Positions 1,430 to 61,350 of a DNA stretch of 64,000 bases are shown here, piece after piece (position 1 is the stretch's first letter; every line of letters begins with the position of its first letter). Made by a program: the position numbers and the translations under genes. The notes below the pieces were generated by a model. That model saw only the letters and a list, made by a program, of their open reading frames with translations. It had not been told where the DNA came from and ran no database searches. Source of the stretch: Nonlabens ulvanivorans (GTDB lineage Bacteria > Bacteroidota > Bacteroidia > Flavobacteriales > Flavobacteriaceae); contig NZ_JPJI01000023.1 in NCBI RefSeq assembly GCF_000732625.1, forward strand, positions 1 through 64,000. Direction: 5' to 3'.

Positions 1430-2485
1430 ATGAACCATCAGTGCTATAACGTTATAGGTGTAATGTCTGGAACTTCTTTAGATGCTATCGATTTGGTTTA
1501 TGTAAAGTTAGTACGTAATGATTCATGGAACTTTCATGTATTGAAAGTAAAATCGATAGAGTATAATCATGTTTGGCAAACTAAATTGGCTAGTGCTATA
1601 TCGTTGCCAAATATTCATTTGAAGGATTTAAATAATGAATATACTTTATATTTAAGTCAATGTATCAATGATTTTATATATGAAAATCAAATCACCGAAC
1701 TTTTAGCGATATGTAGTCATGGACATACTATACATCATCAGCCTGGGGATGGGTATACTTTCCAAATAGGTAACCTCCCTATATTAGCTGACTTATTGAG
1801 TCAACGGGTTGTTTGTGATTTTAGGTCTCAAGATGTAGATATGGGTGGTCAAGGTGCTCCTTTAGTACCTATTGGAGATCATTTTCTTTTTAATAAGTAT
1901 GATTATTGCCTCAACCTAGGAGGATTTGCAAACATCTCTTATAGTCTTAATGATATACGTAAAGCTTTTGATATTGTCCCGGTTAACGTAGTGCTGAATT
2001 ATTTTGCAAATCGCCTAGGGTCAGATTATGATGATAGTGGTGCTTTCGCGAAAGCAGGAAAAATTAATTCTGAGGTTTTAGCTCAACTAAATTCACTACC
2101 GTATTATAAGGTTGATGGTCCTAAATCTTTAGGAGTTGAATGGATTGACAATCATGTGTGGGATATTATCAAATCAATCGATAACCCTTTAGATGCTTTA
2201 GCTACTTATACTGAACATGTGGCAATGCAAATCTCAAGCGTACTGTTACCTGAATCTACTGTATTAGTTACAGGTGGTGGTGCTTATAATTCATTTTTAA
2301 TACATCGTATATCTTCTTATTCTAAGGCCGAAATAATTATACCGAATAAGGAGCTTATTGAATATAAAGAAGCACTCATTTTTGCTTTTCTAGGAGTACT
2401 TAAATTACGCAATGAGAATAATTGCCTTGCTTCGGTAACAGGAGCCTCTATGGATCATTCAAGTGGTAAGATTTATCTGCCTTAA
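1430..2485 (+). CDS. anmK: Anhydro-N-acetylmuramic acid kinase
   Basis: AnmK phosphorylates and opens 1,6-anhydro-MurNAc to MurNAc-6-phosphate during recycling of cell-wall peptidoglycan in the cytoplasm. The ATP-binding GVMSGTSLDAID signature is at residues 10-21. GDHFLF, LNLGGFANIS and VTGGGAYN follow in the order expected for the ASKHA kinase fold. The 351 residues are close to the usual 350-370. A copy of the 14-bp palindrome sits in frame at 2042-2055 and encodes AFAKA near residue 205. No other recycling gene (murQ, nagZ) is next to it. Confidence 0.93.
   Translation: MNHQCYNVIGVMSGTSLDAIDLVYVKLVRNDSWNFHVLKVKSIEYNHVWQTKLASAISLPNIHLKDLNNEYTLYLSQCINDFIYENQITELLAICSHGHTIHHQPGDGYTFQIGNLPILADLLSQRVVCDFRSQDVDMGGQGAPLVPIGDHFLFNKYDYCLNLGGFANISYSLNDIRKAFDIVPVNVVLNYFANRLGSDYDDSGAFAKAGKINSEVLAQLNSLPYYKVDGPKSLGVEWIDNHVWDIIKSIDNPLDALATYTEHVAMQISSVLLPESTVLVTGGGAYNSFLIHRISSYSKAEIIIPNKELIEYKEALIFAFLGVLKLRNENNCLASVTGASMDHSSGKIYLP
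2042..2055. repeat. 14-bp palindrome copy 1 (inside anmK)
   Basis: Perfect GCTTTCGCGAAAGC, read in frame as AFAKA. Confidence 0.97.
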
Positions 2486-2502
2486 GAAATTGTAAAAAAG
2501 AG

Positions 2503-2531
2503 TTGAAGTGGTCAGGTGTTTTTTATATTTG
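2503..2531 (+). promoter_or_regulatory. Promoter of the dehydrogenase-nhaB operon
   Basis: TTG at 2503-2505 and TATATTTG at 2524-2531 are separated by 18 bases. The start codon follows 24 bases after the -7 element. Confidence 0.65.
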
Positions 2532-2555
2532 TCTGCACTAACCTGAAAATAAAAC

Positions 2556-3782
2556 ATGAAGGAACTTTTAAAGCGTTATGAGAACGCTGAACCCGAAATC
2601 GTATTCCATTGGAATGATCCAGAAACAGATGCCCAAGGTTGGACCGTAATTAATAGTTTGAGAGGTGGCGCCGCAGGTGGTGGAACACGTATGAGAGTTG
2701 GACTTGATAAAAATGAAGTTCTCTCACTAGCAAAAACTATGGAGATTAAATTCACGGTATCGGGTCCTGCAATAGGTGGCGCTAAAAGTGGAATTAACTT
2801 TGACCCTAGAGATCCTCGTAAAAAAGGTGTGCTAGAGAGATGGTATAAAGCGGTTTCTCCTTTACTTAAAAGCTATTATGGCACCGGTGGTGATCTTAAC
2901 GTAGATGAAATACATGAAGTAATCCCTATCACTGAAGATTGTGGAGTTTGGCATCCTCAAGAAGGTGTCTTTGCAGGTCATTTTTCTCCTACTGAGGCTG
3001 ATAAAATTAACCGCATTGGGCAATTACGTCAAGGTGTGATAAAAGTTATTGAAAATCCTATTTATTCGCCAGATGTTTCTAGAAAATATACGGTAGCAGA
3101 TATGATTACTGGTTATGGCGTTGCAGAAGCTGTAAAACATTTTTATGATATTTATGGCGGTGATGTTAAAGGTAAACGTGCCGTTGTTCAAGGTTTCGGT
3201 AATGTAGGAAGTGCCGCTGCTTATTATCTTTCACAAATGGGTGCGAAAGTTGTAGGAATCATCGATAGAGCTGGTGGATTAATTAATGAAGACGGTTTTT
3301 CTTTTGAAGAAATTAAAGAAATGTTCTTAAATAAAGATGGTAATGCTTTAAGATCTTCAAACTTACTTCCATTTGAAAAAGTAAATGAAAAAATATGGTC
3401 TCTCAAGACTGAGATTTTTGCGCCTTGTGCTGCCTCTAGATTAGTGAGTCAGGATCAAATAGATCAAATGATTGCCTCTGGATTAGAGGTTATATCTTGT
3501 GGCGCTAATGTGCCATTTGCAGATAAAGAAATTTTCTTTGGCTCTATTATGGAGCATACGGATGAAAAAGTAAGCCTTATTCCTGATTTTATTTCAAATT
3601 GTGGAATGGCAAGAGTTTTTGCATACTTTATGGAACGTCGCGTTCAAATGACGGATGAAGCTATCTTTAACGATACCAGCATGACAATTAGAAACGCAAT
3701 TCAAAATACTTATAATAATAATAGTTCGCGTACTCAAATCAGTTCTACTGCTTTTGAAATCGCTTTAAAACAATTGGTTTAA
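2556..3782 (+). CDS. Glu/Leu/Phe/Val-type amino-acid dehydrogenase
   Basis: This NAD(P)-dependent enzyme oxidatively deaminates an amino acid to its 2-oxo acid and ammonia. The substrate pocket and catalytic lysine lie in [15 protein letters not shown] (about residues 69-83). The Rossmann motif [13 protein letters not shown] is near residues 209-221. The 408 residues fit the leucine/valine dehydrogenase to glutamate dehydrogenase range, and sequence alone does not settle the substrate. A clear promoter lies 24 bases upstream. The stop overlaps the next start by one base (TAATG), so the gene is probably co-transcribed and translationally coupled with nhaB. Confidence 0.88.
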
Positions 3783-5332
3783 TGTTCAAGTCTTTTTTAG
3801 GTAATAGCCCTACATGGTTTAAGTCAACCATATTAGCATTTTTAGTTTTTAATACTGCCGCATATTTTGTTCTTGATGGAACGGTAATGGGTTGGATTTT
3901 TATAGCAGAGTTTATATTCTGTCTTGCGATGGCTTTAAAATGTTATCCTTTACAGTCCGGTGGTTTACTAGCTATTCAAGTTATTGCATTAGGATTAACA
4001 CATCCTATGTATAAAGTAGATCATGAAACACATATGGTCGTATTAGATGATTTAGGTAATAAAGTATTAGGTGGTGTTTATGCAGAAGTAGCACAAAACC
4101 TAGAGGTGATTTTGCTGTTAGTGTTTATGGTAGCGGGAATTTATTTTATGAAACCTCTACTCATGTATATTTTTGTAAAACTGTTTACAAAGGTAAAATC
4201 TAAAATAGCTCTTTCTCTATTTTTTGTACTAATCAGTGCTGTGTTATCTGCCTTTTTAGATGCTCTTACAGTTACAGCAGTTCTAATTAGTGTCGGTCTA
4301 GGTTTTTATAATGTTTATCATAAAATACATTCTAGTGATCTAGATTTAGATCATGATAATACATTGGATAGAAAGCAGTTAAGTGGTGAAACATTAGAAG
4401 ATTTCCGTTCATTCTTACGTAGTTTAGTAATGCATGGTGTGGTAGGAACAGCGTTAGGTGGTGTTTGTACAATTGTAGGTGAACCTCAAAATTTACTTAT
4501 CGGTACAAAGCTTAATACAGCATTACCTTATGAATATGGATTCATAGAATTTTTCCTTCACATGGCACCTATTACGATCCCAGTTTTAATAGCTGGTCTA
4601 ATTACAACCGTATTGTTAGAAGTTACTAAAACATTTGGTTTTGGTCAGAAAATGCCACCTGTAGTAAGACAGATTATTGAAGGATGGATGGAAAAACGTG
4701 ATCAAGAACGTACTAGTAAGGAGAAATATGGTCTTTTAGTTCAAGGAGTTTCAGCTATTCTATTAATCATTGGTCTAGCATTGCATATTGCACCAGTTGG
4801 ATTTATAGGTCTTGCTTTAATAGTGATTCAAACTGCGTTTATGGGGATAACAGATGAACATAGTCTTGGAAAAGCCTTTGAAGAAGCACTTCCATTTACA
4901 GGACTATTAGTTGTGTTTTTTGTGATCGTTGCGATGATTCATGACCAGCATTTATTTGCACCTATTATTGAATGGGCATTAAGCCAGGACCCTAGTAGTC
5001 AACCGGCAATATTCTATCTTGCAAATGGTGTTCTTAGTATGATTTCTGATAATGTGTTTGTGGCAACAGTCTACATAAATGAAGTGGGTAATGCATATGA
5101 CGCAGGAAAAATATCTTTAGAGCAATATGAACATTTAGCAGTTGCAATTAACACGGGAACTAACATTCCTAGTGTTGCGACACCTAATGGTCAGGCGGCA
5201 TTCTTATTTTTATTAACGTCTGCTCTTGCACCAGTAATCAATCTTTCTTACGGTAAGATGGTTAAAATGGCATTTCCATATACTGTAGTTCTTACATTAG
5301 TAGGACTTGCATGTGTGATTATGTTCTTATAA
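3782..5332 (+). CDS. nhaB: Na+/H+ antiporter NhaB
   Basis: NhaB is an inner-membrane sodium/proton antiporter that expels Na+ and helps pH homeostasis, as expected in a marine bacterium. The 516 residues match the family length. I recognise several E. coli NhaB stretches: WLLVAEFIF-like [48 protein letters not shown]-like [10 protein letters not shown] and [17 protein letters not shown] near the C-terminus. Many hydrophobic helices span the length. The start overlaps the stop of the preceding dehydrogenase by one base, suggesting one transcript. A nested hairpin holding the 14-bp palindrome follows the stop. Confidence 0.94.
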
Positions 5333-5352
5333 TAAATCAGTAATATTGTATA

Positions 5353-5397
5353 GCTTATTGTAATCACGCTTTCGCGAAAGCATAATTACAATAAGCC
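5353..5397. repeat. Nested hairpin around 14-bp palindrome copy 2
   Basis: The palindrome GCTTTCGCGAAAGC at 5368-5381 is flanked by longer pairing arms: GCTTATTGTAAT on the left and ATTACAATAAGC on the right. It lies between nhaB and the exbB-like gene and is followed by CCTTT, so it could also act as a terminator for nhaB. Confidence 0.8.
5368..5381. repeat. 14-bp palindrome copy 2 (intergenic)
   Basis: Perfect GCTTTCGCGAAAGC between nhaB and the exbB-like gene, at the tip of a longer inverted repeat. Confidence 0.97.
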
Positions 5398-5459
5398 TTT
5401 AGACTGTATACAATCTTTAACATATAAAATGCGTTACTAACCTAACTAAGAAAAATTTA

Positions 5460-6155: not shown

Positions 6156-6156
6156 T

Positions 6157-6549: not shown

Positions 6550-6550
6550 A

Positions 6551-7366: not shown

Positions 7367-7368
7367 TT

Positions 7369-8586
7369 TTGGACTATTCACAGACTCTAAATTGGCTTTT
7401 CAATCAACTCCCGATGTATCAACGTGTGGGAAAAGCGGCTTACAAGGCAAATCTCGATAACACTATATTATTAGATAATCATTTAGGAAATCCCCACCTA
7501 TCGTTTTCAACCATTCATGTAGCTGGCACAAATGGTAAGGGAAGCACTTGTCATATGATAGCAAGTGTACTGCAAGAGGCTGGTTATAATGTAGGGTTGT
7601 ATACATCACCGCATCTTAAAGACTTCAGGGAACGCATCAAGATTAATGGTGTGATGGTTTCAGAAGATTATGTGATTGCTTTTGTAAATAGAAACAAATT
7701 GTTTTTTGAAAGTAATCAACTGTCGTTTTTTGAGATGACTGTAGGTATGGCTTTTCAATACTTTAAAGAGCAAGAAGTAGATATCGCTATTATAGAAACA
7801 GGTCTTGGAGGTAGATTAGATTCCACTAACATAATAAAACCATTAGTTTCAGTGATAACAAACATAGATAAAGATCATGTAGCGATGTTAGGTAATACTC
7901 TTATTAAAATAGCTGGAGAAAAAGCAGGTATTATAAAAAATAATGTACCTGTAGTTGTAGGTGAGAGACGTGATTCTTTGAGGAATAGCTTTCGCGAAAG
8001 CGCAATAAAAAAGCATTCTATTTATCATCAAGTAAACTATCGCTTAAAGCCACTCGCTACAGATTTAAAAGGTGAATATCAAAAGTATAATAGTAGAGTT
8101 GCACAAACTGCGTTAAACGTTTTAACGCAGTCTAGCAACTTTGAAATTTCCCTTGCCCAATTAGAAGCCGGGCTGTTGAAAGTTGCTGCAAATACAGGAT
8201 TGAGAGGTAGGTACGAATTATTGCAAGTTCAACCTAGGGTTATTGCAGATACAGCACATAATAAAGCAGGAATAAAAACATTAGTGAAGCAATTGAAACT
8301 AGAGAAGTTTAATAAGCTTCATATAGTTATGGGAATGGTGTCTGATAAAGATGTGGACCAAGTTTTATCATTAATGCCTAAGAATGCTTTTTATTACATC
8401 GCAAAGCCAAATGTGATACGTGGAATGGAAATAGATGTTTTATCTAGTTTTTTTAAAAAGCATCAATTTAATTTCAAAAAATTTAATTCTGTTTCTGACG
8501 CATTAGATAAAGCTAAGAGTCTGGCACACAGTGATGATTTGATAGTAGTGACTGGTAGTGTTTTTGTAGTAGCAGAAATAATTTAA
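7369..8586 (+). CDS. folC: Folylpolyglutamate/dihydrofolate synthase
   Basis: FolC adds glutamate to dihydropteroate or tetrahydrofolate with ATP in the cytoplasm. The P-loop GTNGKGST is at residues 53-60, and the LYTSPHL, IIETGLGGRLDSTN and DTAHN motifs are in the expected order. The 405 residues are typical. The start used is TTG, two bases after the TonB-like gene. It gives the family-typical N-terminus and no better ATG lies upstream, so the gene is probably coupled to the operon. A palindrome copy at 7988-8001 encodes SFRES near residue 207, a different frame from most other copies. Confidence 0.92.
   Translation: MDYSQTLNWLFNQLPMYQRVGKAAYKANLDNTILLDNHLGNPHLSFSTIHVAGTNGKGSTCHMIASVLQEAGYNVGLYTSPHLKDFRERIKINGVMVSEDYVIAFVNRNKLFFESNQLSFFEMTVGMAFQYFKEQEVDIAIIETGLGGRLDSTNIIKPLVSVITNIDKDHVAMLGNTLIKIAGEKAGIIKNNVPVVVGERRDSLRNSFRESAIKKHSIYHQVNYRLKPLATDLKGEYQKYNSRVAQTALNVLTQSSNFEISLAQLEAGLLKVAANTGLRGRYELLQVQPRVIADTAHNKAGIKTLVKQLKLEKFNKLHIVMGMVSDKDVDQVLSLMPKNAFYYIAKPNVIRGMEIDVLSSFFKKHQFNFKKFNSVSDALDKAKSLAHSDDLIVVTGSVFVVAEII
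7988..8001. repeat. 14-bp palindrome copy 3 (inside folC)
   Basis: Perfect GCTTTCGCGAAAGC, read here in the frame giving FRES. Confidence 0.97.
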
Positions 8587-8604
8587 AATTTATTTCAAAA
8601 ACAC

Positions 8605-8634
8605 TTGTAAGTTCCAGGAAAGGTTTTATATTTG
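8605..8634 (+). promoter_or_regulatory. Promoter of tRNA-Val
   Basis: TTG at 8605-8607 and TATATTTG at 8627-8634 are separated by 19 bases. The mature tRNA starts 13 bases after the -7 element. Confidence 0.7.
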
Positions 8635-17503: not shown

Positions 17504-18040
17504 ATGATGAGCGCTCTACGTACCTATGTGCCGGTTTTTAAGTTTGTGGCTACTTTTGGCGTTATTTATATCGTTCTATCTTTAATTTACTATCTGTATT
17601 TACAACAGGATTATAATTCATCAAACTATCCAGATCCTGTGACTTCTCAAGTGTCGTATCAAACCCAGCAGCTGTTAAACGCTATAGGTTATGATGCCCA
17701 GATATCTAATGTGCCGCATCATCCATCGGTTTATATGTATTTAAATAAAACCGTGGTCTATCGAGTGATAGAAGGTTGTAATGCAATAAGTGTAATGATA
17801 TTATTTGTTGCTTTTATTCTTGCTTTCGCGAAAGCGTGGAAAAAAACAGCTTTCTTCATACTCTTCGGTATTACGTTCATCTATATAGTTAATCTATTCA
17901 GATTAGTAGCCCTAGCTATTATTAAAAATAAGTATCCACAGTATGATCATATTTCACATGATATATTGTTTCCAGCGGTGATCTACGGTTCTGTGATTTT
18001 ACTTTGGTTGATTTGGGTTAAAAAACTAAAACATATATGA
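17504..18040 (+). CDS. xrtF: Exosortase XrtF
   Basis: This multi-helix membrane transpeptidase of the exosortase family sorts proteins with a C-terminal PEP-CTERM-like tail in Bacteroidetes. The family catalytic residues are visible as Cys in VIEGCNAIS, Arg in NLFRLVAL and His in HISHDILFP. The 178 residues agree with the short XrtF type. The palindrome copy at 17822-17835 encodes AFAKA in a loop after a helix. The following gene overlaps by four bases (ATGA) and is the usual XrtF partner. No candidate target protein is seen in the window. Confidence 0.85.
   Translation: MMSALRTYVPVFKFVATFGVIYIVLSLIYYLYLQQDYNSSNYPDPVTSQVSYQTQQLLNAIGYDAQISNVPHHPSVYMYLNKTVVYRVIEGCNAISVMILFVAFILAFAKAWKKTAFFILFGITFIYIVNLFRLVALAIIKNKYPQYDHISHDILFPAVIYGSVILLWLIWVKKLKHI
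17822..17835. repeat. 14-bp palindrome copy 4 (inside xrtF)
   Basis: Perfect GCTTTCGCGAAAGC, in frame as AFAKA. It is the first copy to the right of the island. Confidence 0.97.
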
Positions 18041-22344: not shown

Positions 22345-22358
22345 GCTTTCGCGAAAGC
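22345..22358. repeat. 14-bp palindrome copy 5 (intergenic)
   Basis: Perfect GCTTTCGCGAAAGC, 13 bases beyond the 3' end of the metalloprotease gene, within AGTTTTACAC and GTAAATAAAACT flanks that can also pair. Confidence 0.97.
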
Positions 22359-26701: not shown

Positions 26702-26715
26702 CGCTTTCGCGAAAG
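26702..26715. repeat. 14-bp palindrome copy 6 (groS-groL gap)
   Basis: Perfect GCTTTCGCGAAAGC inside the groS-groL operon gap. If transcribed it would form a hairpin between the two genes. Confidence 0.97.
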
Positions 26716-26728
26716 CGTATTCGATAGA

Positions 26729-31684: not shown

Positions 31685-31698
31685 GCTTTCGCGAAAGC
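31685..31698. repeat. 14-bp palindrome copy 7 (intergenic)
   Basis: Perfect GCTTTCGCGAAAGC in the 299-base gap between divergent miaB and topA. The gap otherwise holds only promoter elements. Confidence 0.97.
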
Positions 31699-34430: not shown

Positions 34431-35591
34431 ATGGCATTTGAGTTTCTAAAACCAGTTAGTGATGAAGTGCAAGCTCATGCAATGTTGCAACCACAGCATG
34501 CAATAGGTAACGTCATTAAAATACATACCGCGCATACTGGGCTACCACAATTAAAAGGTGTTCAGATGGTGCTAGTAGGTGTTTTAGAGAATCGTCGTGA
34601 TGAAAATGCCTTATTGCAGATTAAAAATGTTGATCAGGCTAGAAAACAATTCTATGAGCTATTTCCAGGTAACTGGCTATTAAATATTGTGGATATGGGT
34701 GATGTTCACCCAGGTGATAGAGTAGAGGATACCTATTATGTCTTACAGCAATTAACAGCAGAGTTATTATCAAAGAAAATAATTCCAATTTATTTAGGTG
34801 GTAGCCAGGATTTAATGTATCCTATATATAGAGCCTTTGATGATATTAAATACATGATTAATGTGGTTAACGTTGATTGTAGATTTGATATTGGTGATAT
34901 TGAATTACCTATAAGTTCTAGAAGTTATGTTGGGAAGATGGTAGCAGACCAACCGTATAATTTATTTAATTATAGCAATTTGGGCTTTCAGACATATTTT
35001 AACAGTCAAGATGAAATAGAGCTTTTAGAGCGCATGTATTTTGATGCTACTCGATTAGGTGTTCTTGATGAAGATATAAAATTGGCTGAGCCAGTAATGC
35101 GCGATGCAGACGTGGTTGGTATAGATATGGCTGTGGTTAAGGCTGGTGATACTGCTTTCGCGAAAGCGAATCCAAACGGGCTTAACGGCAAGCAAATTTG
35201 TAGTTTATCGAGATATGCAGGTATAAGCGATAGAACACAAGTGTTTGGGATATTTGAAATTCCAATTGATGCCAGTTTAACAGGCTCGCAACTTATTGCA
35301 GAAATGATTTGGTACTTTATAGAAGGTTATAATTATAGAGCAGGAGAGCATCCTGTTAATGTAGAAAATGGTTATTTAAAGTATCGTGTACCCATTGAAG
35401 ATGAGGTTTTAACATTCTATAAGTCTAATAAAACTGGACGATGGTGGATAGAGTTGCCTTTTCTTTCAAATGTTAATAATAAACTAAAACAACAAACGTT
35501 ATTACCATGTACTCGCAAGGATTACGAACTGGCTTGTGATCAAAATTTGCCAGAGAGATGGTTAAAAGCGAGAAGAAAGAATGAAGTATAG
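34431..35591 (+). CDS. Arginase/formimidoylglutamase-fold protein with degenerate metal sites
   Basis: The 386 residues have an arginase/ureohydrolase fold pattern. The sequences at the manganese sites depart from active enzymes. GGDHS is GGSQD, DAHxD is DCRFD (at NVDCRFDIGD), and SxDxDxxDP is GIDMAVVKAGD. Several metal-binding His and Asp are thus missing, so hydrolysis is doubtful. It is often annotated as formimidoylglutamase in flavobacteria. It sits between topA and gldK, a neighbourhood I believe is conserved, and may have a structural or T9SS-linked role. The palindrome at 35154-35167 encodes AFAKA. Confidence 0.72.
   Translation: MAFEFLKPVSDEVQAHAMLQPQHAIGNVIKIHTAHTGLPQLKGVQMVLVGVLENRRDENALLQIKNVDQARKQFYELFPGNWLLNIVDMGDVHPGDRVEDTYYVLQQLTAELLSKKIIPIYLGGSQDLMYPIYRAFDDIKYMINVVNVDCRFDIGDIELPISSRSYVGKMVADQPYNLFNYSNLGFQTYFNSQDEIELLERMYFDATRLGVLDEDIKLAEPVMRDADVVGIDMAVVKAGDTAFAKANPNGLNGKQICSLSRYAGISDRTQVFGIFEIPIDASLTGSQLIAEMIWYFIEGYNYRAGEHPVNVENGYLKYRVPIEDEVLTFYKSNKTGRWWIELPFLSNVNNKLKQQTLLPCTRKDYELACDQNLPERWLKARRKNEV
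35154..35167. repeat. 14-bp palindrome copy 8 (inside arginase-like gene)
   Basis: Perfect GCTTTCGCGAAAGC, in frame as AFAKA, just after the degenerate third metal motif. Confidence 0.97.
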
Positions 35592-41845: not shown

Positions 41846-43771
41846 ATGCTCAATATTCACGATTTACATGTTAGTTTTGGCGGCGAGCCATTATTTGAAG
41901 AGATAACCTTTAGACTCAATGGAGGAAATCGTGTAGGGCTTATTGGAAAAAATGGAGCAGGTAAATCTACCTTATTAAAAGTAATTGCTGGAGATCTAGA
42001 ATACGATCAAGGTCAACTTGCCATGGAAAAAGGTACGAGCATTGGTTTCTTGCGTCAGGATATTGATTTTGAAAAAGGCCGTACCGTACTAGAGGAAGCA
42101 TATACCGCTTTCGCGAAAGCGAGAGAAATAGAAGCAGAACTGGATCAAATAAACGTCCAATTAGCAGAAAGAACTGATTATGAATCTGATTCTTACTCAA
42201 AGCTTATTGAGGACATGAGTACTTTAACTCATGAATATGAAATTATAGGTGGATATCAATACAAAGGTGAAACAGAAAAGATACTAAAGGGACTTGCTTT
42301 TAAACCAGAGCAATTTGGAATGCTTACAGATGAGCTTTCTGGTGGATGGCGCATGCGCATAGAGCTTGCAAAACTCTTACTAGAAAATCACGATATTTTA
42401 TTACTTGATGAGCCTACAAATCACCTGGACATCGATTCTATTTTATGGTTAGAGCAATTCTTACAGACATATCCTGGTGCAGTGGTAATTGTAAGTCACG
42501 ATAAAATGTTTCTTGATAATGTGACTAACCGTACTATTGAAATTAGTTTGGGACGTATATATGATTATCCAAAACCATATACAAAATTCCTTGCACTACG
42601 TGCTGAAATGCGCGAGCAACAAGAAGCTACATTTAAGAATCAGCAAAAAGAGATTGAACGTACTGAGAAGCTGATTCAAAAGTTTAAAGCTAAAGCAAGT
42701 AAGGCTACCATGGCTCAATCACTTGTTAAAAAGTTGAATCGCATGGATGTGGTGGAAATTGAACAAACTGATAATGCAGCGATGAACATCAACTTTGCTA
42801 AGTCTATACAGCCCGGTAAAGTGGTTTTAGAGATTGATAAAGTTAGTAAGTCTTATGGTGAAAAAAAGGTACTGAGCGAGGTCGATTTAATGATAGAAAG
42901 AGGTGCTCGTGTTGCTTTTGTAGGTCAGAACGGAATGGGGAAATCTACCCTAGCAAAAATCATAGTAGGCGAGATAAAAGATGCTAGAGGTGAAGTCAAT
43001 CTTGGACACAATGTGCAGTTAGGGTACTTTGCCCAGAATCAAGCTGAATATCTAGATGGAGAAAAGACAGTCCTAGACATTATGATAGATGCTGCAGATG
43101 ATGGAAATCGTGTGAAAGTGAGAGATATGCTAGGTTCATTTCTGTTCCGCGGTGATGAGGCAGAAAAAAAGGTGAAAGTATTAAGTGGTGGTGAACGCAA
43201 TCGATTAGCGCTTTGTAAACTGCTATTGCAGCCATTTAATGTTCTTATTATGGATGAGCCTACTAACCACCTAGATATTCAGTCTAAGAATGTTTTGAAG
43301 GCGGCTTTGGTTAAATTTGACGGGACACTTATCGTCGTGTCGCACGATAGAGAGTTTTTACAAGGTCTTACTGATGTTGTTTATGAATTCCGTGATCATA
43401 AATTAAACCTGCATTTAGGTGATATAGACTATTATCTTCAGCAGCGCAAGGCTCAAGACATGCGTGAGATTGAAAAAGTTACTGAGGTTAAGGTTGATCC
43501 GCTTTCGCGAAAGCAAGAAACAGAAAAGAAACAGCTTTCATACGAAGATCAGAAAAAACAAAAGTCTTTAAATAATCGCCTGTCAAAAGCAGAGTCAGAA
43601 ATCAATAATCTAGAACGAGAGATTAAGAAATTAGATCATGAGCTAGCAGCTAACTATGATGAACTGGCTGCAAAGCCAGGTTTTTTTGATGCTTACCAAG
43701 CAAAAAAGAAAGCATTAGACGAATGGATGACAAAATGGGAAGACATCTCTGAACAGCTCGATAAATTCTAA
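41846..43771 (+). CDS. ABC-F ATPase
   Basis: This soluble ATPase has two ABC domains and no membrane part, of the ABC-F family that acts on ribosomes. First domain: GKNGAGKST, LSGGWRMR and LLLDEPTNHLD. Second domain: GQNGMGKST, LSGGERNR and LIMDEPTNHLD. A long charged linker joins them, and a coiled-coil C-terminal extension (about residues 545-641) resembles the Uup/EttA-like type. Two palindrome copies lie within it, encoding AFAKA near residue 88 and LSRK near residue 552. It may assist translation or confer ribosome protection; which is unclear. Confidence 0.92.
   Translation: MLNIHDLHVSFGGEPLFEEITFRLNGGNRVGLIGKNGAGKSTLLKVIAGDLEYDQGQLAMEKGTSIGFLRQDIDFEKGRTVLEEAYTAFAKAREIEAELDQINVQLAERTDYESDSYSKLIEDMSTLTHEYEIIGGYQYKGETEKILKGLAFKPEQFGMLTDELSGGWRMRIELAKLLLENHDILLLDEPTNHLDIDSILWLEQFLQTYPGAVVIVSHDKMFLDNVTNRTIEISLGRIYDYPKPYTKFLALRAEMREQQEATFKNQQKEIERTEKLIQKFKAKASKATMAQSLVKKLNRMDVVEIEQTDNAAMNINFAKSIQPGKVVLEIDKVSKSYGEKKVLSEVDLMIERGARVAFVGQNGMGKSTLAKIIVGEIKDARGEVNLGHNVQLGYFAQNQAEYLDGEKTVLDIMIDAADDGNRVKVRDMLGSFLFRGDEAEKKVKVLSGGERNRLALCKLLLQPFNVLIMDEPTNHLDIQSKNVLKAALVKFDGTLIVVSHDREFLQGLTDVVYEFRDHKLNLHLGDIDYYLQQRKAQDMREIEKVTEVKVDPLSRKQETEKKQLSYEDQKKQKSLNNRLSKAESEINNLEREIKKLDHELAANYDELAAKPGFFDAYQAKKKALDEWMTKWEDISEQLDKF
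42107..42120. repeat. 14-bp palindrome copy 9 (inside ABC-F gene)
   Basis: Perfect GCTTTCGCGAAAGC, in frame as AFAKA. Confidence 0.97.
43501..43514. repeat. 14-bp palindrome copy 10 (inside ABC-F gene)
   Basis: Perfect GCTTTCGCGAAAGC, read in the third frame as LSRK, in the linker before the C-terminal coiled coil. Confidence 0.97.
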
Positions 43772-48236: not shown

Positions 48237-49590
48237 AATATTATATGGTCTTATTGCTTTGGTGTATCTCGCTTTCGCGAAAGCGTATGCACAACAGCCC
48301 GATGCATCATTATTAACACGAGAGCAAGCTGTTGAGCTCATGTTAGAAAATAATTACGGAATCCAGATAGCAAGAAATTCAGAAATCATAGCCGAAAATA
48401 ATACCAGTATCTTGAACTCAGGTTATTTGCCTAGTCTTCAAGGAACCGCAGGCGCCTCTATTGATGAGAATGATTCTAAAACAGACTTTAATGGCGCGCT
48501 AGATGTTAACGGCCTACCACGAGATGATATAGAAATCAATAATGCGCAAACTACACAGTATAATGCGGGACTATCTTTAAATTACACTTTATTTGATGGA
48601 TTGGGTAGGTTGTATAATTATAAACGGCTTAAAGAGCAATATCAATTAAGCCAATTACAAGCTAGGTCTACTATAGAGACTACTACTGTTCAATTGATGA
48701 GTGTTTATTTAGAGATTGCAAGATTAACCGAGAATGAAAAGATTTTTCAAGAGAATCTGAAAATCTCAAAACAGCGTGAAAAACGTGCACAATATCAATT
48801 TGATTATGGTCAGGTTAATAAATTAGAGGTTCTTAACGCACGAGTAGACATTAACGCAGATAGTATCAACCTTTTAAATTCTAGACAACAATTACGCAAT
48901 ACTAAACGTGATTTAAACCTATTATTAAACCGCGATCTGGATAGTCAATATGTGGTCGATACGACGGTGACTTTTCAAAATATCTTAATGATGGATAGCT
49001 TTTTAGAGAAAGTTCAAGAGAATAATGTCAGTCTGCTACAGGCAGAAAGTACGTTACAGATAAGTGATTATGATATTAAAACAACTAAGGCGCTTTTGCT
49101 GCCACGTATAGGCCTGACGGGTTCTTATGGGTGGAATCAATCAGAAAACCCACCGACAGCATTTTTTCCTTCTACTACCAGAACTAGTGCGAGTATAGCT
49201 GTAGGAGCAAATTTGACTTGGGATATTTTTGACGGTGGTTCCTCTTTAAATAATTTGCGTAATGCAAAGATTGCTTATAAGAATGAGGCTTTATTTAAAA
49301 GTCAATTAGAACAAGAAGTAGCGCGTGATATTGCAAATGCAAAAGGGAATTATGAGAATGCGCTTGCCATATATCAAATGCAAGAGCAAAATGTACTTAC
49401 TAATGAAGATAATTTTAACCGCAGTCAAGAACAATTCAAAATAGGTCAAGTCAGTAGTGTAGAATTTAGACAAGCGCAACTTAACCTATTGAACGCGGTA
49501 ACAATTAAGAACCTAGCAAAGTATGATGCAAAGCTTGCAGAGTATCAATTATTACAACTAGTAGGGCAAATTTTGAATATGCCTTTATGA
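48223..49590 (+). CDS. TolC-family outer-membrane efflux protein
   Basis: The start chosen is the ATG at 48223 (MMKHKILYGLIALVYLAFAKAYAQQ), which gives a normal signal peptide. The longer frame at 48190 starts within the permease. The body has the alternating coiled-coil halves of TolC proteins (LTREQAVELMLENNYGIQIA and YQFDYGQVNKLEVLNA). The palindrome at 48271-48284 encodes the AFAKA just before the probable cleavage site (AYA, then QQP). It forms the outer-membrane exit of the RND pump. The small CPxC gene overlaps its stop (ATGA). Confidence 0.92.
   Translation: MMKHKILYGLIALVYLAFAKAYAQQPDASLLTREQAVELMLENNYGIQIARNSEIIAENNTSILNSGYLPSLQGTAGASIDENDSKTDFNGALDVNGLPRDDIEINNAQTTQYNAGLSLNYTLFDGLGRLYNYKRLKEQYQLSQLQARSTIETTTVQLMSVYLEIARLTENEKIFQENLKISKQREKRAQYQFDYGQVNKLEVLNARVDINADSINLLNSRQQLRNTKRDLNLLLNRDLDSQYVVDTTVTFQNILMMDSFLEKVQENNVSLLQAESTLQISDYDIKTTKALLLPRIGLTGSYGWNQSENPPTAFFPSTTRTSASIAVGANLTWDIFDGGSSLNNLRNAKIAYKNEALFKSQLEQEVARDIANAKGNYENALAIYQMQEQNVLTNEDNFNRSQEQFKIGQVSSVEFRQAQLNLLNAVTIKNLAKYDAKLAEYQLLQLVGQILNMPL
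48271..48284. repeat. 14-bp palindrome copy 11 (in TolC signal peptide)
   Basis: Perfect GCTTTCGCGAAAGC encoding AFAKA at the C-terminal region of the signal peptide. Confidence 0.97.
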
Positions 49591-50908: not shown

Positions 50909-50922
50909 GCTTTCGCGAAAGC
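50909..50922. repeat. 14-bp palindrome copy 12 (intergenic)
   Basis: Perfect GCTTTCGCGAAAGC, 22 bases after the YgjV-like gene and 85 before the M16 peptidase gene. Confidence 0.97.
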
Positions 50923-54794: not shown

Positions 54795-54969
54795 AATATA
54801 CATTTTTGATTTATTTGATTTTTTGACTCATTGTTGGTGATACGAGCAAATCAATAAATTGGATTTATTATGATAAAATAAATAGCCTATTTAAGAGTAT
54901 TTTGTGTTTTTGAGATAAGAAATCTTAAAGAATTAACGGTTTTGATTAAAAGAGAATTGTGTTAATCTC

Positions 54970-54983
54970 GCTTTCGCGAAAGC
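54970..54983. repeat. 14-bp palindrome copy 13 (intergenic)
   Basis: Perfect GCTTTCGCGAAAGC in the 256-base gap between the OmpA lipoprotein gene and the five-gene operon. Nothing else is seen in that gap. Confidence 0.97.
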
Positions 54984-55050
54984 GTATTTAAAATACAATT
55001 TCATCACCAAAAAACTATAGGCCTACTTTATACATATTGAATTTCGAATT

Positions 55051-55614: not shown

Positions 55615-55619
55615 GTTAA

Positions 55620-56111: not shown

Positions 56112-56133
56112 GATTTGTTGTTTTTTATTTTTA

Positions 56134-57393
56134 TTAGTCTACTAGTTCAATGGTATAGTGATAGCCGAATGCTATTTTCCTTTTATTAACTTCTTTTACG
56201 TCTGAGTAACCTCTTGCATATCTTTTATTTCCTACTGTTTCTAACCAAAAGGAATTGTGCGTGTTTGGAATCCTTCGGCGACCATTATGTCCCGATACTA
56301 TTGGGTAATCAGAAGCGTTTGTTTTACCTGTCAGAAAATCTAAAATTGGAGGTAGATAAATCTCGTTTTCTTCTTTAACATGTTGTATTCCTGGGTATTC
56401 CTCTGAGAATCGAAAATCAATATAGCTTTTCTTATAATCACTTTCTTGATATTCAAAAACTAAGTAATTTTGCACATCGGTATTTGCACCTACGGCATAT
56501 CTATTTGGATCGTTATCTCTATAAAGTTTACAATACCCATTATAACAAGGGTTTGATAATGAGCTTTCATCTGATGTTGCATAGCTCCCATTTTTATTTT
56601 GTAAGCTAAAAAAAATATTCATTGAGCCTATTTCTCTATTTCGCAAATTGTCTGATTTATTGCATTTAAAAGTGTTCAAGGTGATTTTAAATTTTATAAT
56701 ATTACTTGAATTGCCAACTGTTGATGAAGCTGCACCTGCTGTAGAGATATTAACTATTTTACGCTGTCCATCCCAGCTACCGTAAGCACGATTATTGAAT
56801 TTACCTTGGAACGTGGTATTCTTAAAAATGAAAGAACAGGTTTCATTAACAGCACCTAGTTTTCTTCTGTACTTGCCGGTAAAGATCCCTGTAGTATGAT
56901 TCATTTTGCCCCATACCATACCACCATTGTTTCCATAATGAGCAACCATAATACCTGTCTTGCTATTTATAAAATCTAGCTCACCATATGTCGTAGTCCA
57001 TTTTCCTTTGATGTAGTTTTGGTCAGCATCGGTAGTTTTTGTTCCGTTCCAGGCGCCTTGTTCGTGGCTTGCAGTCCATCCCCATGTTCCTGTAAAAGAA
57101 TTACCAGATTTAATCCATTTGAAATAGCCCACGCGTCCATTGTTGTCGAATTCTCCATAAAAAGCTGTTCCCATGGTGGTAAGTGATCTAATGGCGCCTA
57201 ATTCTCTGTAAGTTCCAACTACATATTGATTTTTTTGGTTTAAAATTACTTGCCCAAAAGATGTATCCCAGGTTCCTGTCCAGTCCGTTACAAGTGTTTC
57301 TATACAGGATGAGTTTTTTGTTTCCGCTTTCGCGAAAGCGCAATTGACTATCGTCAATGCTATTAACATTATTATATATTTTAAATTCTTCAT
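56134..57393 (-). CDS. Exported protein, paralogue 1 of a tandem pair
   Basis: The signal peptide includes AFAKAE, encoded by a palindrome copy (57326-57339). The N-terminal half has repeated units of about 45 residues with the pattern G-x-W-x(4)-G near the start of each unit (TGTWDTSFGQVILN, KGKWTTTYGELDFI). The C-terminal part contains GRRRIPNTHNSFW then RGYSDVKEVN and ends GYHYTIELVD. The same order is seen in the next gene, at moderate identity. No sorting domain of T9SS is seen. Function is unknown. Confidence 0.7.
   Translation of the reverse strand: MKNLKYIIMLIALTIVNCAFAKAETKNSSCIETLVTDWTGTWDTSFGQVILNQKNQYVVGTYRELGAIRSLTTMGTAFYGEFDNNGRVGYFKWIKSGNSFTGTWGWTASHEQGAWNGTKTTDADQNYIKGKWTTTYGELDFINSKTGIMVAHYGNNGGMVWGKMNHTTGIFTGKYRRKLGAVNETCSFIFKNTTFQGKFNNRAYGSWDGQRKIVNISTAGAASSTVGNSSNIIKFKITLNTFKCNKSDNLRNREIGSMNIFFSLQNKNGSYATSDESSLSNPCYNGYCKLYRDNDPNRYAVGANTDVQNYLVFEYQESDYKKSYIDFRFSEEYPGIQHVKEENEIYLPPILDFLTGKTNASDYPIVSGHNGRRRIPNTHNSFWLETVGNKRYARGYSDVKEVNKRKIAFGYHYTIELVD
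57326..57339. repeat. 14-bp palindrome copy 14 (in signal peptide of paralogue 1)
   Basis: Perfect GCTTTCGCGAAAGC. On the gene's strand it encodes AFAKA close to the expected cleavage site (AKA, then ET). Confidence 0.97.
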
Positions 57394-57408
57394 TTTGTAT
57401 AATTTTAA

Positions 57409-58593
57409 TTATTTAAGTTTAAGAGTATAGAAATAGCCCCATTTATCGTCGTTTCCATATTTTATGAAGGCATAACCACGAACCGTACGCTTACCATTTG
57501 CCTCCGTAAGCCAGAAAGTATGATCTGAATCAGGAATGATTTTACGACCATCAGGACCGTTGACAAAACTGGAAGCATCTCGCTGAAAATTGAGGTATTC
57601 TAGAATAGATTTAAGTGATATAGTAGATAATCTAAGACGGTCTTCTGCATTACTTGCTCTAGTTCTTCTATGTGTAAAAGAAAATCCTAAACGAGGATTA
57701 CTATAGTATCCTGCTGGACCTACTAGACTGTAAAAAATATCTCCCGAGACGGTTCTATTTACATCATAAGATTGATTTTCTTGATATCTTTTATTGGTTT
57801 GATCTGTGTACAAATCTCTTGTAAAAAGAGTTCCTATATCATCATATAAAATCATTGTGATGTTAATTTTTCCCCATTCTTTATCTCTAGGTCTGCCTTT
57901 ATTGGCATAGTTTTTAATGGTTTGAAATTTTAATTCTAATAGATTTCTAGATTCAGAACCTCTGAAATTTTGTTTAGAAAAACCTGGAACAGTAACGGTA
58001 CCATAAATCCCATGGTTCCAATCAAATGATAATGTAAATCCAGTATTACATTTTATGGTATTCTCATCTGATGTGATGTAACCTTTAAACTGCTTATTTT
58101 TATAATCTCCATAGACATAAAACTCTTTGTTGTTAGTATATAAAAACCCAGCAACTCGACCATTAGAGTTTTGAATCAGTTGCATTGTTCCTAGTTTAGT
58201 CTGAAAGGTTTTAGTCAATTCATTATTAGGGAAATTGGTTGATTGTAACGTTCCATTCCAGCCGCCATCCCACTTATTAAATCCTGTGGTAGTTTTCCAT
58301 TTATAGTTGCCATTCCATCCATTTGTCGAATTGGGTGAAAATGACACCAGTCCATTCTTGCAATTATTTGAGAAGGCGCCTGTATAAACAGTTCCTCTGC
58401 CAGTTATGGTAAACGGCGATAATAAAATATGCCCATATTTATTATATAGTCCAACAGCTTTATTACCAGATTTTGAATTTAGAATATGCACCTCTCCATG
58501 TGGAGAAGTAAAAACGCCATCCTTTAATTTATCGTTTGCAAGAACCGTGTTGTATAGCAATACGGTCAGTAAAGTGGTGAAGAATATTTTCAT
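57409..58593 (-). CDS. Exported protein, paralogue 2 of a tandem pair
   Basis: This 394-residue relative of the gene after it has a signal peptide (about residues 1-19, ending VLAND). The N-terminal half again carries the G-x-W/Y repeats (KTFQTKLGTMQLIQNSNG). The C-terminal end (GRKIIPDSDHTFWLTEANGKR, then RGYAFIKYG and GYFYTLKLK) lines up with that of paralogue 1. The two probably arose by tandem duplication. Between them is a 15-base gap, and the OmpA-type gene lies three bases upstream. Function is unknown. Confidence 0.7.
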   Translation of the reverse strand: MKIFFTTLLTVLLYNTVLANDKLKDGVFTSPHGEVHILNSKSGNKAVGLYNKYGHILLSPFTITGRGTVYTGAFSNNCKNGLVSFSPNSTNGWNGNYKWKTTTGFNKWDGGWNGTLQSTNFPNNELTKTFQTKLGTMQLIQNSNGRVAGFLYTNNKEFYVYGDYKNKQFKGYITSDENTIKCNTGFTLSFDWNHGIYGTVTVPGFSKQNFRGSESRNLLELKFQTIKNYANKGRPRDKEWGKINITMILYDDIGTLFTRDLYTDQTNKRYQENQSYDVNRTVSGDIFYSLVGPAGYYSNPRLGFSFTHRRTRASNAEDRLRLSTISLKSILEYLNFQRDASSFVNGPDGRKIIPDSDHTFWLTEANGKRTVRGYAFIKYGNDDKWGYFYTLKLK

Positions 58594-58596
58594 GAT

Positions 58597-59931
58597 TTAT
58601 AATTGCTTAATTTCTACTCTGCGATTTTGAGCTTTAGAAACAGAGTCTTCTCCATAAAAAATTGGTGCATTTTCTCCCTTTCCTGAGGTTGTCAATCGGC
58701 TGGCGTCGACGCCGTATTGATTGATCAAAACATATTTTACAGCATTTGCTCGATTTTCTGAGAGTTGCTGATTCATTAATTCATCTCCATCAGTATCTGT
58801 GTGACCTATAATTTCATAAGTATTTGATGATTTTGCCATTTCTTGCGATAGCCTTTTCAATACTCCAGCAGACTCAGGTTTTATAATCGTAGTGCCGGTA
58901 TCAAAAGTGATTCCGTGTGCCTGATAAGAACCATTTTCAAATAAACTTTGTGGGATTTCGACATCACCAGCATACTTGATATTACTAATGTAAAAATGTT
59001 GATCATCAGGAGATATATTAGTTCCAAATCTGAGCGTGGAATAAACTGCTGCTGGATCTAAGGCTCTCATCATATCAATCACCTTTTCCTCATTAACATA
59101 CATTTTGATGCGCAGTCCTTTTTTAACAATAGCGACGTGATGTACTTTATCTATTATGGACTGATTATAGAAAGCATCATAACTAGTTTTTGAAGTAGCG
59201 TTAAGACCAGGTGTTTTAGCTTTTTTATTAATTAGGATTCCGTAGCCACTGCCACCGCCAGCACCTATTCTTAGGTAAGTATAGGCTTTACCTTCATAGG
59301 CATCAGACAGATAAGAGTTTGCATCTTTAAGGTCTGATAGAATGATATCAAAATGCCTTTTAAATGCAGACTCTTGAGGGAAATCATGAGCGATATCAAA
59401 TTCAAGAGTAAAATCTTCTTGCCAGTTATCTATGATGTCATTCATAACCAGCGTTTTTGACCCATTACCTATTTGGAGCCATTTTCCAGGTTGCGCATTC
59501 ATTTCTACTACCTCAGCACTACTATCAGTATTCCATGTAGAAGGAAAATCCCCTATAAAAGTGCTTGTAAAATCCTCCATGACTTTAAGATCAGCTCCAG
59601 GTATAAAATCATATTTAGTATACGATTCAAAAAGATTTTCTTGTTGAGAAGGAACATCCATTTGATTTATAGATTGGTCTTGATCCATTCCCATAGGAGC
59701 ATCTTCCATAGTAGGATATTCGTCATTCCTGATTCTCGTGGAATCAGTGGTAGTTGAGTCGCTTGAGAATAATAAATCATCTACACTTTTATCAACTTTC
59801 TGTTCTATTTTTTGTTCGGTTTGTTTAAGTTTTTTGTCCACCTTTTTTTTAAGTTTTTTAAAAAACTGCGCGTTTGCAACTGTGGAGAAGGATAAAGCGA
59901 TAATGCACATCCATTGTATTGATTTTTTCAT
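58597..59931 (-). CDS. OmpA-family protein with a long N-terminal extension
   Basis: This 444-residue exported protein has a signal peptide (about residues 1-21), then a very Lys-rich stretch (FFKKLKKKVDKKLKQTEQKIEQKVD). The middle region (about residues 110-325) looks like a concanavalin-type beta sandwich: GNGSKTLVMND, EFDIAHDFP and LRIGAGGGSGYGILINK. The C-terminal OmpA domain has IIGHTDTDGDE, LSENRANAVKYVL and AQNRRVEIKQL. It heads the minus-strand operon and is divergent from the ECF sigma gene. Confidence 0.82.
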   Translation of the reverse strand: MKKSIQWMCIIALSFSTVANAQFFKKLKKKVDKKLKQTEQKIEQKVDKSVDDLLFSSDSTTTDSTRIRNDEYPTMEDAPMGMDQDQSINQMDVPSQQENLFESYTKYDFIPGADLKVMEDFTSTFIGDFPSTWNTDSSAEVVEMNAQPGKWLQIGNGSKTLVMNDIIDNWQEDFTLEFDIAHDFPQESAFKRHFDIILSDLKDANSYLSDAYEGKAYTYLRIGAGGGSGYGILINKKAKTPGLNATSKTSYDAFYNQSIIDKVHHVAIVKKGLRIKMYVNEEKVIDMMRALDPAAVYSTLRFGTNISPDDQHFYISNIKYAGDVEIPQSLFENGSYQAHGITFDTGTTIIKPESAGVLKRLSQEMAKSSNTYEIIGHTDTDGDELMNQQLSENRANAVKYVLINQYGVDASRLTTSGKGENAPIFYGEDSVSKAQNRRVEIKQL

Positions 59932-60038
59932 AATTCGATCGTAATAGTTTGTTGCCTTTTAATGAGTTGTATCTTTAAAGGTTAACACAGTTGCATAGAT
60001 ATTTGTAATTTTACTGAAGCTCTAGACGTGACTTTTCT

Positions 60039-60578
60039 ATGAAAAACCAACCTATTATTGAATTACTAAAATCTGGAGAGGCTGCTTTTTTTAAGGAACA
60101 ATACAGTCTGTATCGAGAAGAGTTTATAGGATATGCCTTGAAAAAAGGAGTCGATCCAGAAGCTGCTGTAGATATCTATCAAGACTCCTTTGTAATTTTA
60201 TTTGAGAATGCAGCCTCTGGAAAATTACAATCACTAACCAGCAGTTTAAAGACCTACATTTTTGGCATTGCAAATAATAAAATCTACGAGGTTCTAAGAA
60301 AAGATCAAAACACTGTTAACCTTGATGATCTATCCTACATAAAAGAAGAAATAACACATTTAGATCTGGAAGAGCAAGTCTTAACTTCAAATCAACGAGT
60401 CCTACGTGTGGCATTTGATCAACTAGGAGAACGTTGTAAAAATATCATTTCACTATTTTATTTGGACGGTCTGACTATAAAAGAAATAATGACCGTAGAA
60501 AATTATACTAGTGAAAATACAGTAAAAGCCCAAAAAAGCCGCTGCATGAAGCAACTTAAAGAACTCACAAAAAACTAA
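60039..60578 (+). CDS. ECF-type RNA polymerase sigma factor
   Basis: The 179 residues carry region 2 (DIYQDSFVILFENAASGKL, about residues 45-63) and region 4 (CKNIISLFYLDGLTIKEIMTVENYTSENTVKAQ, about residues 131-163), as in ECF sigma factors. The next gene begins one base after the stop and encodes a membrane protein of anti-sigma-like build. The divergent operon of exported proteins is a candidate target. Confidence 0.88.
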   Translation: MKNQPIIELLKSGEAAFFKEQYSLYREEFIGYALKKGVDPEAAVDIYQDSFVILFENAASGKLQSLTSSLKTYIFGIANNKIYEVLRKDQNTVNLDDLSYIKEEITHLDLEEQVLTSNQRVLRVAFDQLGERCKNIISLFYLDGLTIKEIMTVENYTSENTVKAQKSRCMKQLKELTKN

Positions 60579-60579
60579 T

Positions 60580-61329
60580 ATGGATTCCCTTACCCTTATA
60601 CAAAACGTGATTCATAATCGAGCTTCTCAAGCTGAGTTTATAGAATTTCAAAATCGTCTGGAAAAAGACCCTGCATTTAAAGCGCTTTATGAAGAGTCTC
60701 TAGATATAAGGGCAATTGCATTGGAACAGAAAAAATCAAAACTCAAAAACCTATTACAAGAACAAGAAAGAAAATTAAATCAACCAGCGTCTGAAGGTTC
60801 TACAATAACTAAAAAGACTAGTGTTTTTAAATTTTTAATTCCAGCTGTAGCCGCTGCTGCTATCATTATTTTTTCATTGAATCTATTCGGTAATAGTATT
60901 ACAACATTAGAGCTTTTTGAATCTAATTACGAACCATACAGGAATGTAATGGGTGGTATAGAGCGCGGTGAAGAAATCAAAGAAGACTTAATAAGTAAGG
61001 CATTTTATACTTATGAAATAAAAGATTATACCACTGCAGCTATATTGTTTGAACAGTTATATGAAACCGATCAACAAAGCATGTACCTCTTTTATCATGC
61101 AAATGCTCAATTAGGAAAGGGAAATACGCAAAAAGCCATTTCTTTATACAAACAACATCAGAATGTACAAGATGATTTTTATGCACGATCCCGATGGTAT
61201 CTTGCTTTGGCATATTTGAAGAATGATCAAATACAAGAAAGTATTGCTGTTCTAGAGGGAATTTCTAAAGTTAAGTCTTACAACTACGTTAAGGCTAGAG
61301 AGCTTTTATTAAGTTTAGAAGATTTGTAG
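60580..61329 (+). CDS. Anti-sigma-like membrane protein with TPR-like repeats
   Basis: This 249-residue protein has a cytoplasmic N-terminus (about residues 1-85) and a single membrane helix (about residues 87-105, FLIPAVAAAAIIIFSLNLFG). The extracytoplasmic part has TPR-like pairs (YTTAAILFEQLYETD and TQKAISLYKQH). Its position one base after an ECF sigma gene makes anti-sigma function likely, although no zinc-binding anti-sigma motif is visible. Confidence 0.72.
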   Translation: MDSLTLIQNVIHNRASQAEFIEFQNRLEKDPAFKALYEESLDIRAIALEQKKSKLKNLLQEQERKLNQPASEGSTITKKTSVFKFLIPAVAAAAIIIFSLNLFGNSITTLELFESNYEPYRNVMGGIERGEEIKEDLISKAFYTYEIKDYTTAAILFEQLYETDQQSMYLFYHANAQLGKGNTQKAISLYKQHQNVQDDFYARSRWYLALAYLKNDQIQESIAVLEGISKVKSYNYVKARELLLSLEDL

Positions 61330-61336
61330 AAGTTTT

Positions 61337-61350
61337 GCTTTCGCGAAAGC
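61337..61350. repeat. 14-bp palindrome copy 15 (intergenic)
   Basis: Perfect GCTTTCGCGAAAGC, eight bases after the stop of the anti-sigma-like gene. Confidence 0.97.

Follow-up and report, generated by a model that had tools for sequence, protein, structure and literature searches.

A palindrome iterated along the chromosome

What keeps a single 14-base palindrome recurring along a bacterial chromosome, intact and inside as well as outside genes? The question is raised by a 64,000-nucleotide stretch of Nonlabens ulvanivorans DNA (NCBI RefSeq assembly GCF_000732625.1, contig NZ_JPJI01000023.1, positions 1 to 64,000; hereafter the window), in which we counted 15 exact copies of the palindrome GCTTTCGCGAAAGC. 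The palindrome resembles an address label of a kind not yet described, perhaps flagging DNA that related cells should take up. The letters of GCTTTCGCGAAAGC occur in none of 5.39 million papers searched, and among the papers listed by topical searches, judged by titles and the beginnings of abstracts, none treats the element; subscription journals lay mostly outside the scope of both.

No copy arose in 100 dinucleotide-preserving shuffles of the window, which bears out the claim of an initial annotation that the count lies far above chance. The window contained no words with one or two mismatches to the palindrome and two words with three. The excess extended to the whole genome of 3,211,390 bases, where GCTTTCGCGAAAGC occurs 566 times exactly and a reversed control word not once; elsewhere in the genome, too, the motif lies far above chance, contrary to what the initial annotation had named as refuting its observation. 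With up to two mismatches allowed, the same genome yielded 714 words compared to 22 for the control, i.e., approximately 126 decayed copies in addition to the exact ones. The complete genome G019, sampled over 800 kb, gave 197 exact words and 20 with one mismatch, and samples of other motif-rich genomes gave corresponding counts of 84 and 15 (G000), 79 and 11 (G267), 27 and 10 (G251), and 38 and 4 (named Dokdonia sequences). Since neutral loss would be expected to give similar numbers of exact and one-mismatch words, exact sites appear to be strongly held, least so in G251. The initial annotation overstated two features of the immediate flanks: C and G together flank the palindrome in 436 of the 566 genomic copies and in seven of the 15 in the window, where most had been said to be so extended, and GT(A/G)A directly follows four of the 15, where T(A/G)A had been said to follow often.

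The whole palindrome is the unit. Half-sites of eight bases, counted with full copies masked and near-misses included, were enriched only about twofold (19 compared to 10.4 expected, and 27 compared to 10.2). This bears on a Chi-like recombination or repair signal for AddAB or RecBCD, bidirectional because it is palindromic. Chi is likewise a dispersed word related to recombination, the density here is similar to that of Chi in Escherichia coli, and the flanks described below are asymmetric between strands. However, the word here is palindromic and needed whole, and its 14 strict bases exceed the length of known Chi sequences. We consider such a role improbable, and with it the repair hotspot that the initial annotation had suggested, taken in the Chi sense.

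A second comparison is with HIP1 of cyanobacteria (GCGATCGC), also a highly iterated perfect palindrome spread across chromosomes, as described in PMC4390886. On this model, a conserved solitary methyltransferase together with methyl-directed repair would keep the word. HIP1 has eight bases, whereas the element here has 14 strict bases plus arms, and outside the motif the inner word TCGCGA matches its expected count (94 compared to 88.6), for which reason a short methylated core was rejected. The two methyltransferase families searched were also patchy: of the 19 genomes of the genus that were examined, eight lacked PF00145 (C5), as did G251; eight, including the genome of the window, lacked PF01555 (N6/N4), as did G267; and three (G007, G008, and G010) lacked both. 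A conserved methyltransferase of either family was rejected on these grounds, and we regard a HIP1-like explanation as quite improbable.

Distribution among genomes

All 23 genomes of the genus that were searched, that of the window included, carry between 288 and 857 copies. In the same survey, six of 37 other members of the family carried one to six copies and 31 carried none, and no copies were found in 39 genomes from other families of the order. A census of 397 family genomes identified as motif-rich four genomes of the genus, G251 (408 copies), and G267 (857 copies), the last identical in its tree protein sequence to Dokdonia sinensis SH27; among the remaining 391, 74 had one to 19 copies and 317 had none. 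All ten of the named Dokdonia loci contain copies. A 16-base form, searched in 395 genomes of the phylum, was abundant only in the genome of the window (436 copies), with one or two copies in ten others. The closest named genome to that of the window is Flavobacteria bacterium BBFL7, with 98% protein identity.

In a tree of one M16 peptidase (95 rows), the genus of the window, G251, and Dokdonia formed one group of 18 rows (SH-aLRT 88); this is a single protein, and within the group the inner forks are open, some branches are long, and G251 is placed among rows of the genus. The simplest reading of this distribution would be a single origin of the motif in the common ancestor of the three genera.

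A scan for palindromes in other genera, made on pooled and orthologous loci, revealed nothing comparable. The word GGTAAATTTACC occurred 13 times in pooled Winogradskyella loci compared to 0.15 expected; given that these loci are orthologous this may reflect shared coding sequence, and another iterated palindrome is possible. In genus g168 (G205 and G389), which lies outside the clade, six to nine scattered copies of the 14-mer were observed, far above chance (L288, L289, L293, L294, L298, L299). None of six scattered copies in these two genomes has G at the first outward position on both sides, and they may be a different matter.

Conservation at orthologous sites

The initial annotation had called for a comparison of orthologous loci. 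We compared 36 sites with three genomes at 88–90% identity. Sixty-six of the 108 pairs could be aligned, and empty sites could hide among the 42 that could not, which lay mostly at the ends of stretches. The palindrome was exact in 51 of the 66 aligned pairs (G001, 25/32; G016, 14/18; G003, 12/16), compared to 28–34% for random 14-mers in the same comparisons, and flanks were often below 80% identity. The 15 non-exact pairs comprised nine single substitutions, four double substitutions, and two one-base gaps; both gaps fall in the T-run in G001 and may be sequencing errors. The palindrome is therefore strictly conserved at the DNA level, beyond its flanks.

Three window sites remain in position across the genus at 67–90% DNA identity. 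Two lie in one gene with two ABC ATPase domains: that at 42107–42120 is exact in 17 of 22 aligned relatives, and that at 43501–43514, near the gene's end in the frame LSRK, is exact in 19 of 22 despite scrambled flanks. The third, at 48271–48284, lies in the opening codons (as AFAKA) of an outer-membrane efflux gene and is exact in 18 of 19 aligned relatives. These counts leave out the window itself and genomes present more than once (L001, L226, L227, L228); with them, the 43501 site is exact in 24 of 27 rows. The same 20 kb holds four further sites, for which alignments were obtained only with the nearest relatives. Between genes, the site at 50909–50922 is exact in all three near relatives, two of which have flanks at only 66–68% identity, and the site at 54970–54983 is exact in G003 and a single-base variant in G016 and G001. 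In G001 the same deletion (TTT to TT) occurs at the 42107 site and at position 128507 of G000:C23. At 42107 it would shift the frame of the ABC ATPase gene; it is possibly a sequencing error, perhaps one arising from a modified or hairpin-forming site.

Spacing and placement of the copies

Spacing was sampled in 40 stretches of 20 kb, equal to 27% of the complete G019 chromosome. Every stretch holds between one and ten copies and no obvious gap was seen at origin or terminus, by inspection rather than by a formal test of bias. The copies avoid one another and their spacing is over-even: the coefficient of variation was 0.556, compared to a minimum of 0.716 in 2000 simulations, and six of 157 spacings were below 1 kb, compared to a simulated mean of 39.8 that never fell below 24. 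Spacings below 1 kb, here counted without simulation, were similarly rare in G000 (0/63), G267 (2/63), G251 (1/17), and named Dokdonia sequences (0/28), and none was found among the 74 spacings of the first 75 sites in G016, where approximately 10 were expected. A region of about 91 kb in another genome (G002:C1:131678-222907, parts in L284–L286) is without any palindrome; its three sampled parts have a GC content of 0.31–0.35.

Placement was determined for the 197 sampled copies of G019 with our own codon-score gene caller. Eighty-nine copies (45%) lie outside genes, in 10.8% of the DNA, so that intergenic DNA carries about four times the average density. The 108 copies within genes use three reading frames, i.e., AFAKA (66), RFRES (21), and xLSRK (21), and 23 of them fall in the first 35 codons (approximately 10% expected), 20 of these as AFAKA. 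Since three frames are used and 45% of copies are outside genes, a protein motif was rejected as the explanation, a possibility that the initial annotation had itself named as fatal to its observation. Among 84 intergenic copies with both neighbors visible, tandem genes flank 50, divergent genes 22, and convergent genes 12, proportions near the share of such DNA; in tandem intervals the copies are closer to the upstream stop (median 24.5 bases) than to the next start (91.5 bases). Neither a protein motif nor a regulatory element explains this placement.

A wider, dyad-symmetric footprint

Recognition appears to extend beyond the core. Counting outward from the palindrome, position +1 is G in 82–95% of half-sites in G019, G000, G267, and named Dokdonia sequences, and in 57% in G251. 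The outward consensus continues with A at +3 and preferences for A near +7, +10, and +13, and G is mostly reduced to 2–10% at +4 to +18 (at most 17%, at +14) in the genus and in Dokdonia, more weakly in G251 (27 sites). In G019, G at +4 to +19 amounted to 5.4% outside genes compared to 17.2% in controls, and 9.1% inside genes compared to 20.2%. The depletion is present on both sides regardless of the direction of transcription. C is not depleted in the arms, i.e., G is avoided on the outward strand only, an unusual bias for which AT-richness alone does not account. Beyond their shared consensus the two flanks do not match one another, except weakly at +2 (0.55 compared to 0.44 in shuffles). 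Given that G is depleted on both sides, whichever way transcription runs, and that the flanks do not pair, we conclude that the arms are read as DNA beside the core over a footprint of about 50 bp. GCTTTCGCGAAAGC is thus the core of a dyad-symmetric element of approximately 50 bp with G-depleted arms reaching to about +19 on each side. A hairpin or cruciform extended by pairing of the flanks was rejected, as most positions show no coupling.

The missing pairing also counts against a self-spreading palindrome of the REP/RAYT type, a transcription terminator, or another RNA element. High copy number, the palindrome itself, and the position of tandem intergenic copies shortly past the upstream stop would suit such elements. 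However, more than half of the sampled copies (108/197) are inside genes, there is no strong bias toward convergent genes, and aligned sites that are not exact have been mutated in place. The self-spreading palindrome proposed in the initial annotation is disfavored further by the mutual avoidance of copies and by the three sites fixed in position throughout the genus, and we find this group of explanations the least credible of those considered.

The same symmetry would suit a nucleoid protein peculiar to the clade, acting as a dimer or tetramer, which would organize the chromosome by anchoring, insulating, or compacting it every few kilobases, in a role like that of Noc, SlmA, or MatP but chromosome-wide. 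Perfect two-fold symmetry with a symmetric extended footprint, near all-or-none recognition (20 one-mismatch compared to 197 exact words), even spacing with sites in every sampled stretch around a complete chromosome, and indifference to the direction of transcription all speak for such a protein. Sites of Noc, SlmA, MatP, and ParB (parS) are likewise palindromes of 12–16 bp scattered on the chromosome; in contrast, the copies here are many times more numerous and show no obvious gap at origin or terminus. Avoidance of G, but not of C, on a single strand is atypical of an architectural protein that binds double-stranded DNA, and no candidate was found: an extra ParB or Noc paralog peculiar to motif-rich genomes was rejected because six of seven such genomes have a single ParB_N match, and the second match in G019 is a 616-aa frame of the same length as one that the motif-poor genomes G162 and G281 also have. 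The sampled DNA contained no parS-like word with up to one mismatch, which is uninformative since origins lie outside the sample. A reader gene betrayed by clustered sites was likewise dismissed, the densest stretch reading in translation as trp and his operons. A nucleoid protein accounts for the data almost as well as the uptake signal proposed below; we hold it less likely, and the initial annotation's binding site for chromosome organization is our second choice.

Copies on mobile DNA and exchange between species

Outside the clade, several genera of Flavobacteriaceae carry the word in shared islands (L271–L277, L287) that are 73–95% identical between genera and keep their palindromes at matching positions; four of the genera have in common a pair spaced by 933 bp, in DNA 74–95% identical. 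Their translations read as copper and heavy-metal efflux genes. Most of the island copies inspected resemble those of the clade in having G at +1 on either side and arms poor in G, and the islands may have moved out of the motif-rich genera. In G137, all 16 copies fall within 78 kb of one contig.

Thirteen records, from 16 viral loci, were searched, and each contained two to five copies. Nine of ten proteins scanned from five of the viral records matched portal, major head, protease, integrase, regulator, DnaB, primase, or transposase families, with the integrase match in L133 and the transposase match in L124, and one matched none. A scan of viral sequences with the 14-mer contained many chance matches; the 16-mer gave 41 stretches. 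Among these the record IMGVR_UViG_3300040781_000495 (37 kb; L200, L409, L412) held the most copies of the 16-base form, at least six. The Nonlabens phages P12024S and P12024L (host recorded as Persicivirga), which have no annotated integrase, contain no copies in 35.7 kb each, and a BLAST search of the consensus against named plasmids and phages returned only weak matches of 17–25 bases (E 3–4).

The copies thus seem to accumulate on DNA resident in these chromosomes, and DNA free of sites is tolerated. Tolerance of the 91 kb region and of two phage genomes counts against a nucleoid protein. It also counts against a mark of self-DNA that spares it from a host nuclease or defense system, a highly improbable function even though the word is present on islands and on some contigs of integrating phages.

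Exchange between species is active. G000, G016, G001, and G003, at about 88–90% identity, are mosaics in which blocks of 97–100% identity, seen along the window, join changing pairs: across 131 segments of 500 bases comparable in the first three genomes, the closest pair was G000–G016 in 44, G000–G001 in 59, and G016–G001 in 28. Near-identical tracts span 0.1–3.5 kb.

A candidate DNA uptake signal

Sites that are dense, over-evenly spaced, found in permissive places and in all frames, held more strictly than their flanks, recognized over an extended footprint, and carried by resident rather than by all incoming DNA lead us to put an uptake signal first. The active recombination between species seen in the mosaic genomes also speaks for it. 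Our tentative first choice is a signal like the DNA uptake sequence (DUS) of Neisseria or the uptake signal sequence (USS) of Pasteurellaceae, which would be palindromic and the first known to us in Bacteroidota. Two of the functions proposed in the initial annotation thus survive, the uptake or sorting signal ahead of chromosome organization.

From these observations we infer a protein reader, its location, and its purpose as follows. Cells of the clade would bear a surface receptor for DNA that binds the element, probably as a dimer, and would thereby favor clade DNA over other DNA in both uptake and recombination. This bias would repair and spread the sites, a form of molecular drive that would place them in permissive spots; because a second site on a fragment would add nothing, spacing would become even. 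Integrating phages and mobile islands resident in these chromosomes would acquire sites as well, and phages never resident there would stay free of them. Stated in full, as a signal of about 50 bp with G-depleted arms, read by a putative surface receptor belonging to transformation machinery not based on a pilus, serving three genera as a mating tag and promoting exchange, a few kilobases at a time, between species that differ by about 11%, the proposal is possible and held with somewhat more reserve.

An uptake signal should be overrepresented in core DNA, and the palindrome is (566 copies compared to none for the control, and all 23 genus genomes). It should be conserved and in permissive places, and it is (51/66 pairs exact compared to 28–34%, and 89/197 copies outside genes). 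For recently acquired DNA the evidence is divided: the 91 kb gap, which may not be acquired DNA, and two phages are free of sites, yet phage contigs and islands carry them. DUS and USS share with the element hundreds of copies, permissive or intergenic placement, copies within genes, conservation above the flanks, and recognition beyond the core. Unlike them, the element is a perfect palindrome with symmetric arms, belongs to Bacteroidota, is less dense, and occurs on islands and contigs of integrating phages, with uptake only inferred.

Published work is consistent with this proposal. Permissive placement and conservation above flanks are described for DUS (Treangen et al., PMC2397512), and the uptake words reviewed by Bakkali show a pattern comparable to that seen here (PMC1939737). 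In competition, Riemerella columbina, which is placed in Flavobacteriaceae, takes up its own DNA preferentially, with no signal identified (PMC7965970). Transformation of R. anatipestifer needs ComEC, DprA, ComF, and RecA together with four proteins found mainly in Flavobacteriaceae, and homologs of transformation genes occur in most of 13 genera of the family examined (PMC8459023).

Several points weigh against an uptake signal. The putative receptor is without a candidate, and the distribution of sites also fits a protein that organizes the chromosome. Known signals occur about once per kilobase, compared to once per approximately 4–8 kb here. Near-identical tracts were no richer in sites than expected (8 of 65 compared to 6.96 expected by circular shift, p = 0.38). 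We know of no test of competence in Nonlabens or Dokdonia, and none of the papers listed by a search on competence names either genus. No competence genes were recognized by eye or with simple patterns in the sampled stretches, which is uninformative since these are a minority of each genome and no search aimed at such genes was made. Known DUS and USS are not palindromes, as PMC1939737 says of DUES, and Flavobacterium johnsoniae is described as not competent in PMC7965970.

Positions of the copies in the window

Fourteen of the 15 positions listed in the initial annotation were correct, and one given as 26702 is 26703. Its division into seven intergenic copies and eight within genes was reproduced against open reading frames of at least 120 aa; the codon-score gene caller gave eight outside and seven inside, having missed the frame at 17504–18040. 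Besides the sites described above, copies within genes are those at 2042–2055 in an AnmK-family gene (frame AFAKA), 7988–8001 in a Mur-ligase-family gene (frame FRES), 17822–17835 in the frame at 17504–18040, which has an exosortase-family match (AFAKA by our reading), 35154–35167 in an arginase-family gene (AFAKA), and 57326–57339 near the start of a minus-strand gene (AFAKA). The remaining intergenic copies lie at 5368–5381, 35 bases past an NhaB frame, at 22345–22358, at 26703–26716, at 31685–31698 between divergent genes and upstream of a bacterial topoisomerase gene, and at 61337–61350, seven bases past the end of a reading frame. AFAKA followed by Q, N, or Y ends several leader sequences (L265, L330, the window site at 48271, and island L272), where the DNA word looks as though it has been fitted into apparent signal peptides.

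Implications for marine Bacteroidota

To our knowledge, few clades tag their DNA with hundreds of identical words, i.e., Neisseriaceae, Pasteurellaceae, and cyanobacteria with HIP1. A further such clade, in another phylum and with a word of perfect symmetry and long footprint, would offer a direct route to the reason for such words. The element may also serve as a marker of the chromosomes in which mobile islands and phages have resided. Either way the system would be new, whether a dense binding system spanning the chromosome or a signal by which marine Bacteroidota recognize species when they exchange DNA.

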